Source of the DNA: Streptosporangiales bacterium
GTDB taxonomy: Bacteria > Actinomycetota > Actinomycetes > Streptosporangiales > WHST01
Direction of reading: 5' to 3'
DNA length: 47,422 bases
NCBI GenBank assembly: GCA_009379825.1
Contig: WHTA01000043.1
Coordinates: 1-47,422 of the forward strand
A model generated the notes under the pieces. It was not told the origin of the DNA. It ran no database searches and saw nothing but the letters and a program-made list of their open reading frames with translations. Of this stretch, positions 18,957-41,374 are shown in pieces. Positions within the stretch are counted from its first letter, which is position 1; every line of letters starts with the position of its first letter. The position numbers and the translations under genes are program-made.

Positions 18957-19973
18957 GTGGTCGACGAGCGCAAGCTCGACGTCCTGCGAGCGATCGTGCA
19001 GGACTACGTGCAGACCCAGGAGCCGGTCGGCTCCAAGGCTCTGGTCGAGCGGCACGAGCTGAACGTCTCCTCCGCGACGGTACGCAACGACATGGCGGCG
19101 CTTGAGGAGGACGGGTACATCGCCCAGCCGCACACCAGCGCCGGGCGGATCCCGACCGACAAGGGTTACCGGCTGTTCGTCGACCGGCTGATGGACGTGA
19201 AGCCGCTGTCGGGCGCGGAGCGCCGCGCCATCCAGCGGTTCCTCGACGGCGCGCTCGACCTGGACGACATCGTCAGCCGCACCGTGCGGATGCTCGCCCA
19301 GGTGACCAGGCAGGTCGCCGTGGTGCAGTACCCGCTGCTGGTGACCGCCGTCGTGCGGCACGTCGAGGTGGTGTCGCTCACCGACACCAGGTTGCTCGTC
19401 GTCGCCATCGCGGACACCGGTCGGGTCGACCAGCGGATCGTGGAGCTGTACGAGCCGACCGACAAGGAGACCGTCGACGTCATCAGGCATCGGCTGAACC
19501 ACGTGGTCGTCGGGGCCAAGCTGAGCGAGGTACCGGACCGGCTCGCCGACTTCGCGGAGGGTTTCGCCGAGCCGGACCGCACGGTGGTGACCGCCGTGCT
19601 CTCGGCGTTGCTCGAGACGCTCGTGGAGCGTCACGAGGAGCGGGTGGCGGTCGGCGGCACGGCGAACCTGTCGCAGTTCGCCGTCGAGTACCCGCAGGCG
19701 ATCCATCCGGTGCTCGAGGCGCTGGAGGAGCACGTCGTGCTGATGAAGTTGCTCGGTGAGGCCACCAATCCGGCGCTCACCGTGCGGATCGGGCAGGAGA
19801 ACAAGCTGGCAGGCTTGCATGCGACGTCGGTCGTGTCGATGGGCTACGGTGTCGGAGACGAACCGGTCGCGAAGCTGGGCGTGATCGGGCCGACTCGGAT
19901 GGACTATCCAGGCACGGTGGGCGCCGTTCGAGCAGTGGCGCAGTACGTCAGCAGGATTCTGGCGGGCAGTTGA
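18957..19973 (+). CDS. hrcA: Heat-inducible transcription repressor HrcA
   Basis: HrcA represses chaperone genes by binding CIRCE. The 338-residue protein starts [20 protein letters not shown], followed by the winged helix ([51 protein letters not shown]), the dimerisation/GAF-like middle and the conserved end [21 protein letters not shown] at 18957 has a very strong GGAGGAGG (18942-18949) upstream. The CIRCE element at 18895-18921 shows autoregulation. The dnaJ gene follows after 29 bases, as in most actinomycetes (hrcA-dnaJ2). Confidence 0.96.
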
Positions 19974-32420: not shown

Positions 32421-33437
32421 TCACGACAGCACCTTGACGTCCGTCCATGCCTTCTTGACCGCGTCCTGCACCTCTTTGTCGAGGCTACCCGCCTGGTCGA
32501 CGGTCAACTCCGCGAACGTGGCGAAGTCGGCGTCGGTGGCGAGGTCGCCGGAGGTGAGCACCTGGTACCAGACCAGCCCGGCGCGCTCCCACGCGTTGCC
32601 GCCGAGCGCGGTCGCGGCGAGGTAGAAGGCGTGGTTCGGGATGCCCGAGTTGATGTGCACGCCGCCGTTGTCGTCGGTCGTGTCCACGTAGTCGTCCATG
32701 GTCGCCGGCTGCGGGTCCTTGCCCAGCTGTGGGTCGTCGTACGCGGTGCCGGGCTCGGCCATCGACCGCAGCGCCTTGCCATTGATGTCCGGGCCGAGCA
32801 GCCCCTTGCCGATCAGCCAGTCCGCCTGGTCGGCCGTCTGCTCGAGCTTGTGCTGCTTGGTCAGTACACCGAACACGTCGGACATCGACTCGTTCAACGC
32901 GCCGGCCTGGTTCTCGTACGCGAGGTTGGCCGTGTACTGCGTGACGCCGTGGGTGAGCTCGTGCGCGGTGATGTCGAGCGGGCCGGTGAACGCGAGGAAC
33001 ACGGTGCCGTCACCGTCCCCGAACACCATCTGGTCGCCGTTCCAGAAGGCGTTCTGGTACTCCTCGCCGTAGTGCACGGTGGCCAGCAGCGGCAGCCCGC
33101 GCCCGTTGATCGAGTTGCGGTCGTACGCCTCGGAGAAGAACCGCCAGGTCGCACCGAGGTGTGCGTACGAGTCGTCCACGGCGTCGTCGCCTGTCGGTTC
33201 CTCGTTCTCCTCGCGGACCACGTCGCCCGGCAGCGTCTCCGCGTTGTTGGCGTCGTAGATGGTGCGGTTGGGCTCGTTCTCCTCCGTCACCTTTGCTGCC
33301 CGGGCACGTGCGGTGCGCACCGCTTGGTCGGTCTGCAGCGTGTGTAGTGCCCGGCTCGACATGGCGGTGTCGTCGGCTCGGCCGAGCGCGTCGAGGAGGA
33401 ACGGCGGGACGATCGAGCAGCAGATGGGAGCAGTCAT
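32421..33437 (-). CDS. Protealysin-like M4 metallopeptidase
   Basis: The 338-residue product is a thermolysin-family zinc endopeptidase. Zinc ligands are His149 and His153 in HELTH and Glu173 in GALNESMSDVFG; Glu150 is the general base and His251 (GVHINSG) stabilises the transition state. The N-terminus MTAPICCSIVPPFLLDAL is the short protealysin-type propeptide with its CC-x-IVPP-x-L motif. The long FTP propeptide and a signal peptide are absent, which implies a cytoplasmic or non-classically released enzyme. ATG at 33437 is preferred over an upstream in-frame start. The next gene encodes its probable inhibitor. Confidence 0.93.
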   Translation of the reverse strand: MTAPICCSIVPPFLLDALGRADDTAMSSRALHTLQTDQAVRTARARAAKVTEENEPNRTIYDANNAETLPGDVVREENEEPTGDDAVDDSYAHLGATWRFFSEAYDRNSINGRGLPLLATVHYGEEYQNAFWNGDQMVFGDGDGTVFLAFTGPLDITAHELTHGVTQYTANLAYENQAGALNESMSDVFGVLTKQHKLEQTADQADWLIGKGLLGPDINGKALRSMAEPGTAYDDPQLGKDPQPATMDDYVDTTDDNGGVHINSGIPNHAFYLAATALGGNAWERAGLVWYQVLTSGDLATDADFATFAELTVDQAGSLDKEVQDAVKKAWTDVKVLS

Positions 33438-33565
33438 GCGCACACGATGACACGGTGTGGCGAGCCGGCGGCAGGCAGTTGCGGGAACTTTCACGCAGCG
33501 CGCCACGCAAAGGCGGACGTCTCGGGTGTCGGACGCCCGGGGTACACACGCTGCGTGACGGAAGG

Positions 33566-33577: not shown

Positions 33578-35416
<1,839 letters not shown>

Positions 35417-35466: not shown

Positions 35467-36792
35467 TCAGCTGGCCACCGGCTCGGCCGGCTGCGCGTGC
35501 CGCGCGGCGCCTGGCCGGTGCGTCTCCTTCGTGACGAGCAGGCAGCCGGTGGTGATGAGCGCGGTGAGCACGAGCATGCCGGCGACCAGCCACGGCGCAC
35601 CGCCCCCGGCCTTCAGCAGCCAGGCCGCGGTGAACGGCATCAGGCCACCGATGAGCGCCGAGCCCTGGAACGCCAGCGACAGCCCGGTGTAGCGGACGTT
35701 GGTGCCGTACAGCTCGGTGAAGTACGTCGCCTGGGCCGCGAACATCAACGTGTTGCCGAACACGTACATGCCGATGAGCGCGACGCAGATGAGCGCGGTC
35801 GACTTGGTGTTCAGCAGCATGAAGAACGGGAACCCGGCGACGACCACGAACAGGGCACCGGCCAGGTACACGGGTTTGCGGCCGACCCGGTCCGAGATGG
35901 CGCCGAAGATCGGCGTCACCACGATGCCGATCGCGGCGGCCACCAGCATCGCGTTGAGTGGCACGGTGTCGCCGAGCAGCAGGGTGCCTGAGATGTACGA
36001 GATGGCGAACGCGTTGCCGAGGTTCGACGTGACGGTCTCCGCCAACCGCGCGCCGAGCGTCACCAGCACCGTGCGGGCGCTGCCGCCGCGGAACACCTGC
36101 ACCAGCGGCACGCGCGCGACCTGGCCCTCGTGCTTCACCTGCTCGAAGTCGGGCGTCTCGGAGATCTTCGAGCGGATGAACAGGCCGATGCCGAGCAGCG
36201 CCACGCTGATCAGGAACGGTATCCGCCAGCCCCAGCTGTACAGCTGGTCGTCGGGGAGCAGGCTCACCAACGCGAACGCTCCTGTGGACAGCAGGATCGC
36301 CGTGGACGCGGAGGCCTGCGGGATGGAGCCCCAGAAGCCGCGCTTCTCCGCGGGCGCGTGCTCGACCACCATCAGCGCGGCGCCGCCGTACTCACCGCCG
36401 AGCCCGAAGCCCTGGCCGAGCCGGAGGATCACCAGCAGGATCGGTGCCCACACGCCCGCAGCGGCGTGCGAGGGGAGCAGCCCGATCAGGAACGTACAGC
36501 TGCCGACGATGGCGAGCGTGGCGATCAGCGTCTTCTTCCTGCCGACTCGGTCACCGAGGTGACCGAAGAAGATCCCGCCGAGCGGCCGCGCGACGAAGCC
36601 GACGCCGAAGGTGGCGAACGCCTGGATGGTGCTGAACGCCGGGTCGCTGCCGGGGAAGAAGACCTTGCCGAACACCAGCGCCGCGGCGGTGCCGAACAGG
36701 AAGAAGTCGTACCACTCCATCAGCGCGCCGGCGAAGCTGTCGAGAGCCACCTTGCGCATCGACGGCGGTGGGGATGTGGAAACGTTCGACAT
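35467..36792 (-). CDS. MHS-family MFS transporter (metabolite:H+ symporter)
   Basis: The 441-residue protein has 12 predicted helices and the MHS signatures FAGALMEWYDFFLFGTAAALVFG at the N-terminus, the MFS loop GHLGDRVGRKKTL, and LRLGQGFGLGGEYGGAALMVVEHAP. The second-half loop is GAISDRVGRKPVY. Related members carry shikimate, proline/betaine, citrate or alpha-ketoglutarate. It is the last gene of the kinase-aldolase-dehydrogenase operon (16-base gap). It could import the sugar or export the C3 end product; the sequence does not say which. Confidence 0.9.
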   Translation of the reverse strand: MSNVSTSPPPSMRKVALDSFAGALMEWYDFFLFGTAAALVFGKVFFPGSDPAFSTIQAFATFGVGFVARPLGGIFFGHLGDRVGRKKTLIATLAIVGSCTFLIGLLPSHAAAGVWAPILLVILRLGQGFGLGGEYGGAALMVVEHAPAEKRGFWGSIPQASASTAILLSTGAFALVSLLPDDQLYSWGWRIPFLISVALLGIGLFIRSKISETPDFEQVKHEGQVARVPLVQVFRGGSARTVLVTLGARLAETVTSNLGNAFAISYISGTLLLGDTVPLNAMLVAAAIGIVVTPIFGAISDRVGRKPVYLAGALFVVVAGFPFFMLLNTKSTALICVALIGMYVFGNTLMFAAQATYFTELYGTNVRYTGLSLAFQGSALIGGLMPFTAAWLLKAGGGAPWLVAGMLVLTALITTGCLLVTKETHRPGAARHAQPAEPVAS

Positions 36793-36808
36793 CGAACCTC
36801 CTTGGGGC

Positions 36809-37800
36809 TTACGAGGGCCAGGTGACGGTGACCTTCACCTGGTCCGGGTCTGCGGTGGCGGCGAACGCCGCGGCCGCCTCGGTCACCGGGTACTCGGCGG
36901 TGACGAGGGCGGCGATGCCGGAGTCCGTGGTCGCGAGCAGCTGCAGCACGGCGTCGATGTCGGCGCCGACGTAGAGCCCGGTGCCGCGCACGTCGATCTC
37001 CCAGCGCTGCAGCCGGGCGAGCGGCAGCGCGGTGTCGCCGCTCGGCACCCCGACGACCACGACCGTGCCGCCTGGGACGGTGGCCGCGCCGGCCGCGCCG
37101 AGCGTGCTCGCCGCGGCCACGCAGTCGAACGTGGTGTCGACGGTGAGCTCAGGCAGGTGCTCGGGCGCGAACGCCGCCGTCGCGCCGAACTTCGTCGCGA
37201 GTGCGCGTTTCGACGCGGTCGGCTCGACCACCGTGACCTCGCCCGCGCCGCGTCAGCGCAGCGACTGCAGCACCGCGAGGCCGACCGGCCCGGCGCCGAT
37301 CACCAGCACCCGGTCGAGGTTGGGCGCGCGCCCGCTGGCGTGCCAGCCGACGGCGAGCGGCTCGGTCAGCACGGCCGTAGCGTGTCGATGCCGGTGGGCA
37401 CCCGGTGGCAGTAGGCGGCGTCGACGACGACCTCGCCCCTGGCCAGGCCGGGCACCCTGAAGCCGCGTACGGCGGCGTTCGCGCACTGGTTGACGACCCC
37501 CGCGCGGCAGCGCTCGCACTCGCCGCACCACACCAGCGGGTTGACCACCGCGAGGTCGCCCGGCGCGACCGCGGTCACCTGCGTACCGACCGCGAGCACC
37601 CGCGCGACCACCTCGTGGCCGGTCACCACCGGCGGTTTGGCGAACGGGTGCCGGCCGTGCAGCACGTGGACGTCGCTGCCGCAGATACCCATGTGCACCG
37701 GCGCGCCGAGCACGTCGGTGTCGCGCTCGAGCGCTGCCGGCGGCGTCGGCTCCACCAGCACCTGCCCACCGGTGCCGAGGACGATCTGCGGCCCGGTCAA
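36809..37800 (-). pseudogene. Zinc-dependent alcohol dehydrogenase (MDR), broken by a frameshift and a stop codon
   Basis: Joined across two lesions, this locus gives a normal-length (about 330 residues) medium-chain dehydrogenase. The N-terminal part has the catalytic zinc ligands (GICGSDVH, GHEV) and four structural-zinc cysteines in CGECERCRAGVVNQC. The frame then shifts at about 37372-37390 (PTGIDTL before, TAVLTEPLAVGWH after). After the Rossmann motif VIGAGPVGLAVLQSLR an in-frame TGA (37253-37255) interrupts before RGAGEVTVVEP. The start is probably TTG at 37800, overlapping the aldolase stop (TTGA). Either the gene is decaying or the sequence has errors here. From context the enzyme would reduce sulfolactaldehyde or oxidise a sugar; this is inference. 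Confidence 0.85.
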
Positions 37801-38696
37801 CGGTTCGTCACGACCTGGTCGACGATGTCGCCGAGCTCCCGCAGCCTGGGTACGGCGTAGGTCTCTAGCGCCGCGGCCTGGTCGTCGGCGCCGATGACCT
37901 GGCGCCACACCGCGCGGCCGGCGAGGAACCCGGAGGCGCCCTCGCCGCAGGCGAGCTCGACGGCGCGCGGGAACTGCTCGTGCGGGACGCCGGTGGACAG
38001 CACCACCCACGGGCCGTCGATACTGCGGGTCAGCTCGGCGCAGCCGCGGCGCACGGCGGCCTCGTCGCCCCCGCCGTGCAGCGGCACCTCGGCCTTGTAG
38101 AGGTCCTGGCCGCGGTTGCCGAGCTCGCGGGCGGCCGCGAAGACGCCCTCGTTCCAGTCCTCTGGCGTCCACGTCGAGCCGTCGCGCGGGCCGCGCGACA
38201 CCGGCTCGACGATGCTCAGCAGGCCGGCCTCCTTGCACCGGCGGACGAACTCCTCGGTCATGGCGATCCGGCCGTCAGGCGCCTCGTCCGGGCGCCAGAG
38301 CACCAACAGCTTCAGCGCCACCGCACCGGCGGCCTTCACCTCGCCGGGCACGACGGCCTCGTCGATCTGCACGGTGGCGACGAACTCCCGGTCGTCGCCG
38401 GCGAACTCGTCGGCGGCGGCGATCAGGCCGCAACCGGGTGCGACGGCGTCCGCCTCGAGTACGGCGTCCAGGCAGAACTGCCGGTCGAGCAGCACCCCGG
38501 AGGCGTACGGCGACAGCTGCCGCACGGTCTCGACCTTGAACGCGGTGAGCTCGGCGTCGGCGACCGGGCGGCCGTAGCGTTCGGCGAACATGGCACGCAG
38601 TGCCTCCCGCTGGTCGACCGCGAGCATCGCGAAGCCGCCCGAGGGGCGGGTGAGCGTGTCGAGGTCGGTGGCGGCGGACCCGGTCGGGCTGGGCAT
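37797..38696 (-). CDS. YihT-like 6-deoxy-6-sulfofructose-1-phosphate aldolase (class I)
   Basis: The 299-residue protein closely resembles E. coli YihT, which splits sulfofructose 1-phosphate into DHAP and sulfolactaldehyde. Shared stretches include PSGGFAMLAVDQREALR, LSPYASGVLLD, VALKLLVLWRPDE, GLLSIVEPV and GASGFLAGRAVW. Lys201 in DLYKAEVPL matches the Schiff-base lysine. Arg261 in LAGRAVW and Ser234-Thr-Gly match the region that binds the sulfonate in YihT. The related LacD tagatose-bisphosphate aldolases look more distant. ATG at 38696 has GAGGAG five bases upstream. It lies 23 bases after the kinase gene and overlaps the dehydrogenase start. Confidence 0.82.
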   Translation of the reverse strand: MPSPTGSAATDLDTLTRPSGGFAMLAVDQREALRAMFAERYGRPVADAELTAFKVETVRQLSPYASGVLLDRQFCLDAVLEADAVAPGCGLIAAADEFAGDDREFVATVQIDEAVVPGEVKAAGAVALKLLVLWRPDEAPDGRIAMTEEFVRRCKEAGLLSIVEPVSRGPRDGSTWTPEDWNEGVFAAARELGNRGQDLYKAEVPLHGGGDEAAVRRGCAELTRSIDGPWVVLSTGVPHEQFPRAVELACGEGASGFLAGRAVWRQVIGADDQAAALETYAVPRLRELGDIVDQVVTNR

Positions 38697-38719
38697 GTGT
38701 CTCCTCTGGTGTGACGTGG

Positions 38720-39640
38720 TCATGACTGTGCTGAACCGATGGCTTCGGTCGGCCGGCGGGCGGCCAGTTCGAGCGTCCGGTCGTGGTCGGGGATCGCGGA
38801 GCGACCATCCAGGCCGCGGCACGACAGCGCGGCCGCGGCGTTCGCGTACGCGAGTGCGGTGGGCAGGTCCATGCCGCGGCTGAACGCCGCGACGAGCGCG
38901 CCGTGGAAGACGTCACCGGCGCCGAGCGTGCTGCGCACCTCGATGTCCTCGTGTGCCGGCACCCGGTAGTGCCCGCCGGCGTCGGCGGCGTACGCGCCGC
39001 GCGGCCCGTCGGTGGCCACCACCCAGGTTGCGCCGTCGGCGAGCGCGGCGTCGAGCAGGTCGTCGGTGTCCGCGCCGCCGTAGAGCTCGCGCAGCGCCTC
39101 GACGGTCGGGGCGTAGAGGTCGACGACGGGTGGGCACGGCCGCGGGTCCAGGTTGCCGGCGTCGTACGAGACGAGCGGGCGGGTGGGCAGGCCGGCCAGG
39201 GCAGCCTCGACCACCGGCAGTCCCTGGTGGTCGACGTGGATCCACCCTGGCGTGCCGATCTCGTCCGCGGACAGCAGGGGCGCGGCGCCCGGGCGGGCGC
39301 AGATCGACCGCGAGTCGGTGGCGGAGTCGACGAGCACGACGCAGCTGGTCGAGCCGGCGTCCTCGCGGGTGCGTACGAGTGTGGTGTCGACGCCCTCGGC
39401 CTCGAGCCCGGCGCGGATGGCGACACCCGCGTCGTCGTTGCCCACGGCCGCGGCCAGCCTGGCCGGCCGCCCCAGCCGCTGGTACGCCACGGCCGCGGTG
39501 GCCGCGGGGCCGCCGCCGGCGACCACCAGGTCGTCGACGAGCACCCGGCCGTCGAACGCCGGCGGGCGTGGCAGGGCAGTGACCACGTCCCAGGCGGCGA
39601 CGCCGACGAACAGCGCCGGCTCAGGGTACTGCTCGGTCAT
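38720..39640 (-). CDS. PfkB-family sugar kinase, YihV-like (putative 6-deoxy-6-sulfofructose kinase)
   Basis: The 306-residue protein is a ribokinase/PfkB kinase. It has the substrate-loop segment VAGGGPAATAAVAYQRLG and the anion-hole/catalytic motif TLGAGDVFHGAL with base Asp243. Both agree well with YihV, including GGGPAATAAVA and GAGDVFHGAL, as does the end CRGLDGRSAIPDHD. YihV phosphorylates sulfofructose at C1. ATG at 39640 follows GAGGTC four bases upstream and is chosen over an ATG at 39652. It is the first gene of the operon, divergent from the DeoR regulator. Confidence 0.82.
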   Translation of the reverse strand: MTEQYPEPALFVGVAAWDVVTALPRPPAFDGRVLVDDLVVAGGGPAATAAVAYQRLGRPARLAAAVGNDDAGVAIRAGLEAEGVDTTLVRTREDAGSTSCVVLVDSATDSRSICARPGAAPLLSADEIGTPGWIHVDHQGLPVVEAALAGLPTRPLVSYDAGNLDPRPCPPVVDLYAPTVEALRELYGGADTDDLLDAALADGATWVVATDGPRGAYAADAGGHYRVPAHEDIEVRSTLGAGDVFHGALVAAFSRGMDLPTALAYANAAAALSCRGLDGRSAIPDHDRTLELAARRPTEAIGSAQS

Positions 39641-39728
39641 CGGTGACCTCACAAGGTGCGAACAGATGGTGGAATATTAACAATCTCGAGCCTTCTGTCA
39701 ATGGCCCGATCGTGCTGCACTTGCTAAA

Positions 39729-39740
39729 GTCTGTTCAGAC
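39729..39740. promoter_or_regulatory. Candidate DeoR-type operator in the divergent promoter region
   Basis: GTCTG-TT-CAGAC is a perfect inverted repeat midway between the kinase and deoR starts (159-base gap, locally AT-richer than its surroundings). A TTGCTA at 39721-39726 could be a -35 element for deoR. The assignment rests on position and symmetry. Confidence 0.5.
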
Positions 39741-39811
39741 AAGGGCGTCTGTGCTTCGAGAGGGAGTACGAGATTTGGTGCACTTCTCACATCTTCGTCG
39801 CTGGCGGCGTC

Positions 39812-40597
39812 GTGCCTAGCCCCTCACTGCGGTACGCGGGGGCGCCGGCGCGCCGCGACGCCGTCCTGGCCAGGCTCCACGAGCGCGGCTTCTGCACCGT
39901 GGCCGAGCTCGCCGCACACCTCGAGGTCTCCGAGATGACCGTACGCCGCGACGTGCGGCAGCTTGCGGCGGTCGGCGAGCTGCGGATCGTGCACGGCGGG
40001 GTGAGCCTGCCGGAGCACACCGTCGCCGCGGCGGGGTTCGACACCAGGCTGCAGGTCAATGTGGCCGCGAAGCGGCGGCTGGCCGCGACCGCGGTGCAGC
40101 TGATCGAACCGGCCGACGCGATCGCCGTCGACACGGGCACCACTGCGCACGCGCTGGTGAACGCCCTGCCGGACGCGTACGACGGGACGGTGGTCACGCA
40201 CTCGATCCCGGTGATGCAGACGCTGCTGGCACGGCCGGACGCGAGGTGCGTGGGGCTCGGCGGCGACCTGTATGCGCCCAACCGGGCGTTCATCGGGCCG
40301 GCCACCGTGGAGGCGGCGGCACGGGTGCGGGTGCGGTGGTGCTTCCTCGGCACGTCGGCCGTGGACGAACGCGGCTGCTACGGGGTCGCCGACCTGGAGC
40401 GTGCCACGAAGAAGGCGCTGATGGACATCGCCGACCACGTGGTGCTGCTCGCCGACGGGGAGAAGTTCCAGCGCTCCGCCCCCGTCCTCCTCGCCGCTCT
40501 CGGCCGGTTGCACGCGGTGGTCACCGACGTCGAGCCGCCGGCCGCGTTCCGCGCCGCCGTGGCCGAGGCGGGCGTGCAGCTCCTCGTCGCCGGCTGA
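39812..40597 (+). CDS. DeoR/GlpR-family transcriptional regulator
   Basis: The 261-residue protein has an N-terminal DeoR helix-turn-helix (RRDAVLARLHERGFCTVAELAAHLEVSEMTVRRDVRQLAAVGELRIVHGG) and a C-terminal sugar-phosphate-binding DeoRC domain with DTGTTAHALVNAL, THSIPVM, GGDLYAPNRAFIGP and LLADGEKFQR. In E. coli the yih sulfoglycolysis genes are also controlled by a DeoR-type repressor (YihW/CsqR), which fits this context. GTG at 39812 is the likely start; ribosome binding site is weak. Confidence 0.9.
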   Translation: MPSPSLRYAGAPARRDAVLARLHERGFCTVAELAAHLEVSEMTVRRDVRQLAAVGELRIVHGGVSLPEHTVAAAGFDTRLQVNVAAKRRLAATAVQLIEPADAIAVDTGTTAHALVNALPDAYDGTVVTHSIPVMQTLLARPDARCVGLGGDLYAPNRAFIGPATVEAAARVRVRWCFLGTSAVDERGCYGVADLERATKKALMDIADHVVLLADGEKFQRSAPVLLAALGRLHAVVTDVEPPAAFRAAVAEAGVQLLVAG

Positions 40598-40642: not shown

Positions 40643-41374
40643 GTGAGTCTCTACCGTGACGAGGCAGTCGTGCTCCGTACCCAGAAGCTCGGCGAGGCCG
40701 ACCGCATCGTCACCTTGCTCACCAGGCGCAACGGCCGGGTGCGGGCGGTGGCCAAGGGGGTGCGCCGCACCACGTCGAGGTTCGGCTCGCGGCTGGAGCC
40801 GTTCACCCACGTCGACCTGCAGCTGTACGAGGGCCGCTCGCTGGACATCGTCACCCAGGCCGAGGCGCTGCGCCCGTACGGCCAGCACATCGCCACCGAC
40901 TACGTCAGGTACACCTCGGGCACCGCGATGCTGGAGACCGCAGAACGGCTGACGCCTGAGGAGCGCGAGCCTTCCGTCCAGCTGTTCCTGCTCCTCGTCG
41001 GCGGTCTGCGCACGCTCGCCGACGGCTCGCACGCCGCCGTGCTCGTCCTCGACTCGTTCCTGCTCCGCGCGCTGGCGGTCGCCGGTTGGTCGCCGTCGCT
41101 CGGCGACTGCGCCAGGTGCGGTACCGGCGGCCCGCACCGCTGGTTCTCGGTGGCGTCAGGCGGCACGGTGTGCGGCGACTGCCGGCCGGCGGGGTCCGTG
41201 ACCGTCGCCGCGGAGACCGCGAGGCTGCTCGGCGCGCTGCTCGCCGGCGAGTGGGCGATCGCCGACGGTAGCGAGCAACGGCACCGGAGGGAGGCGACCG
41301 GGTTGGTCGCGGCGTACCTGCAGTGGCACCTGGAGAACGGCCTGCGGTCGTTGCGGATGGTGGACCGCACGTGA
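40643..41374 (+). CDS. recO: DNA repair protein RecO
   Basis: RecO anneals single strands and, with RecR, loads RecA in RecF-pathway repair. The 243-residue product begins with the OB-fold domain ([40 protein letters not shown]) and has a C-terminal helical domain with zinc cysteines Cys156, Cys159, Cys177 and Cys180 (CARC, CGDC). GTG at 40643 follows GAGG. The uppS gene follows, as in most actinomycetes. Confidence 0.95.

Follow-up and report, generated by a model that had tools for sequence, protein, structure and literature searches.

The operon considered here, from a Streptosporangiales bacterium (genome G000), raises the question of which sugar it serves and with which partners. It lies in a stretch of 47,422 nucleotides, called the window below, and encodes relatives of the kinase YihV and the aldolase YihT of the sulfo-EMP pathway, by which bacteria degrade sulfoquinovose (SQ), a sulfosugar of plants, together with a zinc-dependent dehydrogenase of the MDR type and a transporter. 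The preliminary description took it for a possible variant of the sulfo-EMP route in an actinomycete, with the dehydrogenase in place of the sulfolactaldehyde (SLA) reductase YihU. The families of the aldolase and kinase support the first part of this reading; the second part is corrected here.

Operon content and the families of the aldolase and kinase

The following features were found in the window:

35467-36792, minus strand, MHS-family metabolite:H+ symporter, intact (NCBIfam TIGR00883, E 4e-118)
36806-37384, minus strand, second half of the broken zinc MDR, read in a different frame from the first half and interrupted by a TGA (comparison with the L014 MDR)
37253-37255, minus strand, premature TGA stop in the second half of the MDR (direct sequence)
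37384-37800, minus strand, first half of the broken zinc MDR dehydrogenase; its TTG start overlaps the aldolase stop and the zinc ligands are present
37797-38696, minus strand, class I aldolase, probable sulfofructose-1-phosphate aldolase of the YihT family (phmmer against YihT structures)
38720-39640, minus strand, PfkB kinase, probable sulfofructose kinase of the YihV/AK04 type (best PDB match YihV 7ag6, E 5.6e-25)
39666-39682, minus strand, predicted DeoR operator TGTTAATATTCCACCAT, preceding the kinase gene (found with a PWM from other genomes only)
39812-40597, plus strand, DeoR-family regulator, divergent from the kinase (Pfam DeoRC, E 4e-39)

A leuA-like ORF (33701-35416) and a recO-like ORF (40643-41374), both named by eye, flank this gene set. 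The spacings of 23, -4 and 16 bases between kinase, aldolase, dehydrogenase and transporter agree with the preliminary description, as do the divergent DeoR regulator and the MHS family of the transporter. The minus-strand ORF at 32421-33506 looks by eye like a thermolysin-like metalloprotease gene (HELTH motif) and is unconnected with the sulfosugar genes.

The aldolase matches the YihT structures 7ag1, 7ag7 and 1to3 with E-values of about 1e-78 to 1e-80 in phmmer searches, against 3e-12 or weaker for LacD-type tagatose aldolases. It is about 48% identical to YihT of E. coli K-12 and scores 42 bits with TIGR01232, below the LacD family cut-off of 432. A LacD origin, named beforehand as one refuting outcome, was not seen and is rejected on these scores. 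The window aldolase keeps the Schiff-base lysine of YihT (K193) as well as R253. Since the active-site region is nearly invariant among all YihT-like aldolases compared, it gives no indication of the substrate, and as a test of sulfonate binding its residues were uninformative, the region being common to the whole family.

The kinase is a PfkB protein whose closest solved structure is YihV (about 31% identity). This part of the expected YihV likeness was found, but the protein lacks two YihV motifs, DVRW and NYP. Both are equally missing from the kinase of Arthrobacter AK04, which grows on SQ and excretes sulfolactate (PMC8873060), and the motifs of the two kinases are the same. The comparisons support the assignment of kinase and aldolase to the sulfo-EMP YihV/YihT family rather than to LacD. 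Compared with the yih genes of E. coli K-12, the aldolase is 48%, the kinase 31% and the DeoR-type regulator about 30% identical, whereas YihS, YihU, YihO and YihP have no counterpart in the window.

The broken zinc dehydrogenase and its intact relatives

The zinc MDR had been described as an open gene in the position of YihU, but no single frame covers it. A frame change occurs near 37384 and the premature TGA lies about 130 bases away, while the remaining operon is free of breaks. Aligned with the intact MDR of a Streptomyces locus (L014), the first half covers residues 17-153 at 59% identity and the second half residues 154-348 at 65% identity. An intact orthologous MDR adjoining kinase, aldolase and MHS genes is not what the window holds: the gene is orthologous and correctly placed, but broken. 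The two lesions are of different kinds, which suggests a real pseudogene, and a gene broken as read cannot stand in for YihU. Among cassette MDRs, it comes nearest to the proteins of Streptosporangium and Streptomyces. The cassette MDRs form one clade spanning two phyla (99/96, with long branches among some of the comparison rows). Of the solved structures, sorbitol dehydrogenases and a ketose reductase resemble the MDR most.

What the intact MDR does in related loci was approached by gene content. We collected 80 loci around YihT-like aldolases and scored 85, adding the window, loci from genomes G002, G012 and G049, and a second locus of the same genome on contig C13. YihS is present in 39 of the 85 loci, an SftI-like isomerase in 13 (the C13 locus included) and an MDR in 20 (the window included), and all three are missing from 13. 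The MDR and an SQ isomerase were never found in the same locus (0 of 20 MDR loci, against 52 isomerase loci), and an MHS carrier accompanies the MDR in 20 of 20 (19 relatives and the window). Whole-genome searches in ten MDR-type genomes detected no close SftI homolog, the positive controls G071 and G072 giving the isomerase; for YihS, seven of the ten had no match, one a weak match and two a moderate one. A YihU-like reductase is kept in 14 of 14 proteobacterial MDR loci, and no YihU-like gene was found in the actinobacterial MDR loci. Since the MDR never lies beside an isomerase and the reductase is kept in the proteobacterial cassettes, the MDR occupies the isomerase slot and not the reductase slot.

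It is consequently very unlikely that the zinc MDR replaces YihU as SLA reductase in a variant sulfo-EMP operon. The lack of YihU-like genes in the actinobacterial loci would suit such a role, as would the precedent of SqwF, a metal-dependent alcohol dehydrogenase that reduces a related sulfo-aldehyde elsewhere (PMC12890257). However, the window gene is broken, the proteobacterial cassettes all retain the reductase, with the YihU motif GRTS in the enterobacterial ones, and it is isomerases that the MDR excludes. The other MDR-cassette reductases have GKTP instead of GRTS, and so does that of Cryobacterium (L077), whose cluster has YihS. Tartronate-semialdehyde reductases have SGG where YihU has GRTS. 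A pathway from hexonate to tartronate semialdehyde is disfavoured for the MDR cassettes, as the enterobacterial YihU homologs keep GRTS. Four other loci (L023, L057, L059 and L083) have a YihT-like aldolase with a DeoR neighbour and lack an adjoining YihV-type kinase; they carry a different MDR clade about 8-9 kb upstream.

The intact relatives also bear on whether the operon may still work as an MDR-type cassette. The substrate, a sulfonated polyol or sugar, would then enter through the MHS carrier, and its oxidation by the MDR would give a sulfo-ketose for the kinase and aldolase to cleave, the breaks in the MDR being assembly errors. Intact cassettes of this type occur in Streptomyces, Streptosporangium and Prauserella, and the window aldolase and MDR group with three of them. 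In the cassettes L014-L016, a TauE-type exporter lies within the operon. The intact MHS gene of the window and the likeness of the MDR to sorbitol dehydrogenases and ketose reductase are consistent with this reading as well. We nevertheless regard it as unlikely, given two separate lesions in one gene of an otherwise unbroken operon and a congener, G002, that has neither MDR nor MHS at the same place.

A second locus in the same genome and a predicted common operator

In the aldolase tree, the window protein pairs with that of G002 (97/91), and both lie inside a clade with three MDR-type actinobacterial loci (100/98), so that the window operon seems to derive from an MDR cassette. The isomerase type switches several times across the tree, even inside Arthrobacter, where SftI- and YihS-type isomerases substitute for each other within one clade. 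The window aldolase is the only YihT-like aldolase found in its own genome. An isomerase and a sulfoquinovosidase are absent from the window, as the preliminary description had stated, but the absence does not extend to the genome in the case of the isomerase, and a glycosidase gene of mixed character accompanies it on C13:

C13 17663-19057, SftI/SqvD-type SQ isomerase (SftI the sole NCBIfam match, E 1.5e-79)
C13 10085-12352, GH31 glycosidase (L107), nearer to the alpha-xylosidase YicI than to YihQ

The SftI-like gene is the probable SQ isomerase (of YihS or SqvD/SftI type) found in this genome, with a score below the SftI equivalog cut-off (268 of 700 bits). No YihS-type isomerase was matched in the genome by the AK04 query, and a PF07221 match was weak and not YihS. 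The GH31 enzyme keeps R301 of YihQ and lacks W304. Because it is YicI-like and W304 is missing, the sugar handled by C13 might not be SQ; conversely, the YicI-like GH31 enzymes of actinobacterial sulfo-EMP clusters could be an unrecognised sulfoquinovosidase.

The gene order on C13 is a divergent DeoR gene followed by isomerase, solute-binding protein (SBP), two permeases and GH31. The genes are about 56-75% identical to those of an Actinophytocola cluster (L017) and stand in the same order, minus exactly the kinase and the aldolase. In such hybrid clusters, which include that of Streptomyces sp. WMMB 322 (L051), where SqvD is reported to replace YihS (PMC10991401), the DeoR and isomerase genes are separated by those for kinase and aldolase, whereas in our genome this pair is in the window. 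Of 61 related genomes, just G000 and G002 have a close aldolase, and the isomerase is confined to this same pair; a different genus has two aldolases that are more distant (47-48% identity). Between leuA and recO, G002 has nothing but kinase, aldolase and an operator-like site (contig C164, L008), and MDR, MHS and DeoR are missing from this place; the genome is 77% complete, and the locus was read directly.

The two loci of G000 also have a promoter motif in common. We made a PWM from six promoters, all of them from other genomes. In the 47-kb window it scores highest at 39666-39682 (19.0; next site 13.2; best of 20 shuffles 16.8), and on the C13 stretch its top site is at 19184, between DeoR and isomerase. 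AK04 and clusters of each of the three types have similar sites ahead of the kinase. In a pattern scan of the whole genome (6.15 Mb), only the window and C13 sites had fewer than two mismatches; this pattern was designed with both of them in view, so that only the PWM test is independent. Three further sites with two mismatches were rejected, being no more than in the control and having no pathway genes nearby. The window DeoR is 57% identical to the C13 DeoR, and we infer that DeoR proteins may regulate both loci through one operator type.

We consider it likely that a single sulfo-EMP pathway is split over the window locus and C13, with the MDR as a relic. C13 would provide the upper half, namely an ABC importer, the GH31 glycosidase and an isomerase converting SQ to sulfofructose (SF), and its products would feed the window operon, where the kinase would form SF-1-phosphate and the aldolase would cleave it to DHAP and SLA. 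In the cassette from which the operon would have descended, the places of isomerase and importer were taken by a zinc MDR resembling sorbitol dehydrogenase and by an MHS carrier. As the genome already had an isomerase, the MDR may have become dispensable and decayed, and the operon would now serve together with the C13 genes. In G002 the loss would be further along, with MDR, MHS and DeoR gone and the kinase and aldolase left. A pathway divided between two loci under a common predicted operator would be missed by searches for single clusters. The closest studied system is the sulfo-EMP cluster of Arthrobacter AK01/AK04 (PMC8873060; AK04 is L044), to which the aldolase is 59%, the PfkB kinase about 42% and DeoR 41% identical and with which the operator in front of the kinase is similar. 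The Arthrobacter genes, however, form one locus with YihS and GabD/SlaB, whereas ours would be two loci with an SftI-type isomerase and a GH31, and SlaB in neither.

Counting against the split pathway are the uniform aldolase active site, the YicI-like GH31, the low score of the isomerase, the absence of an SLA reductase (YihU) or dehydrogenase (SlaB) from both the window and C13 loci, and the intact MHS gene, for which it does not account. MHS carriers often transport organic acids. This habit, together with the uniform active site and the GH31, would also fit a non-sulfonated ketose-1-phosphate as substrate, such as one whose C6 bears a carboxylate or phosphate group, or else a sugar released by GH31 from an alpha-glycoside. 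Such a substrate seems quite unlikely to us, as the gene order is common to clusters with SftI or YihS, TauE-type exporters occur in related clusters, and the operator is held in common with the SQ-degrading AK04.

The related cassette of Escherichia coli Nissle 1917

A related enterobacterial MDR cassette is found in E. coli Nissle 1917 and its relatives:

NZ_CP022686.1:2849596-2858154, eight-gene MDR cassette of E. coli Nissle 1917 (L130)
L082:7168-15731 and L128:3078-11636, the same cassette

Its eight genes encode DeoR, kinase, YihU, aldolase, zinc dehydrogenase, two MFS carriers and an aldose 1-epimerase. Of these, the MDR and MHS are orthologous to those of the window (54% identity between the window MHS and that of the Escherichia cassette), and the aldolase, kinase and DeoR are related; YihU, the second MFS carrier and the epimerase are additional in Nissle 1917, and the MDR is intact there but broken in the window. 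In L082, and likewise in Nissle 1917, the cassette is placed after yihN, where K-12 has its SQ genes; in E. coli MSHS 472 it is flanked by yihN and yihX. A short yihTUVW cassette, found by searching with the K-12 yih genes, has been described as truncated and was not induced by SQ in the study that described it (PMC12608037). As the Nissle locus holds eight genes, the short cassette is not simply a truncated remnant. In Nissle 1917 and many pathogenic strains it has four further genes, including the zinc dehydrogenase and its own transporters, and these make its substrate a directly testable question.

The retained YihU motif and the likeness of the MDR to sorbitol dehydrogenase make a sulfonated polyol or sugar a candidate substrate of the Escherichia cassette. 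We see even chances that the Zn-MDR/MHS cassettes constitute an unrecognised branch of sulfosugar metabolism, in which the MDR would take the place of the SQ isomerase: from a sulfonated polyol, or from a sulfonated sugar that is not SQ, it would produce a sulfo-ketose, feeding kinase, aldolase and SLA reductase. If this is true, Nissle 1917 has such a branch at its yih locus in place of the K-12 SQ genes. In a set of 5426 complete E. coli genomes, 1316, about a quarter, carry the dehydrogenase gene and with it the putative branch, and 3984 carry the K-12-type yihS. These counts, which sum to 5300 and are not paired per genome, fit the MDR cassette and the K-12-type yih genes being alternative alleles.
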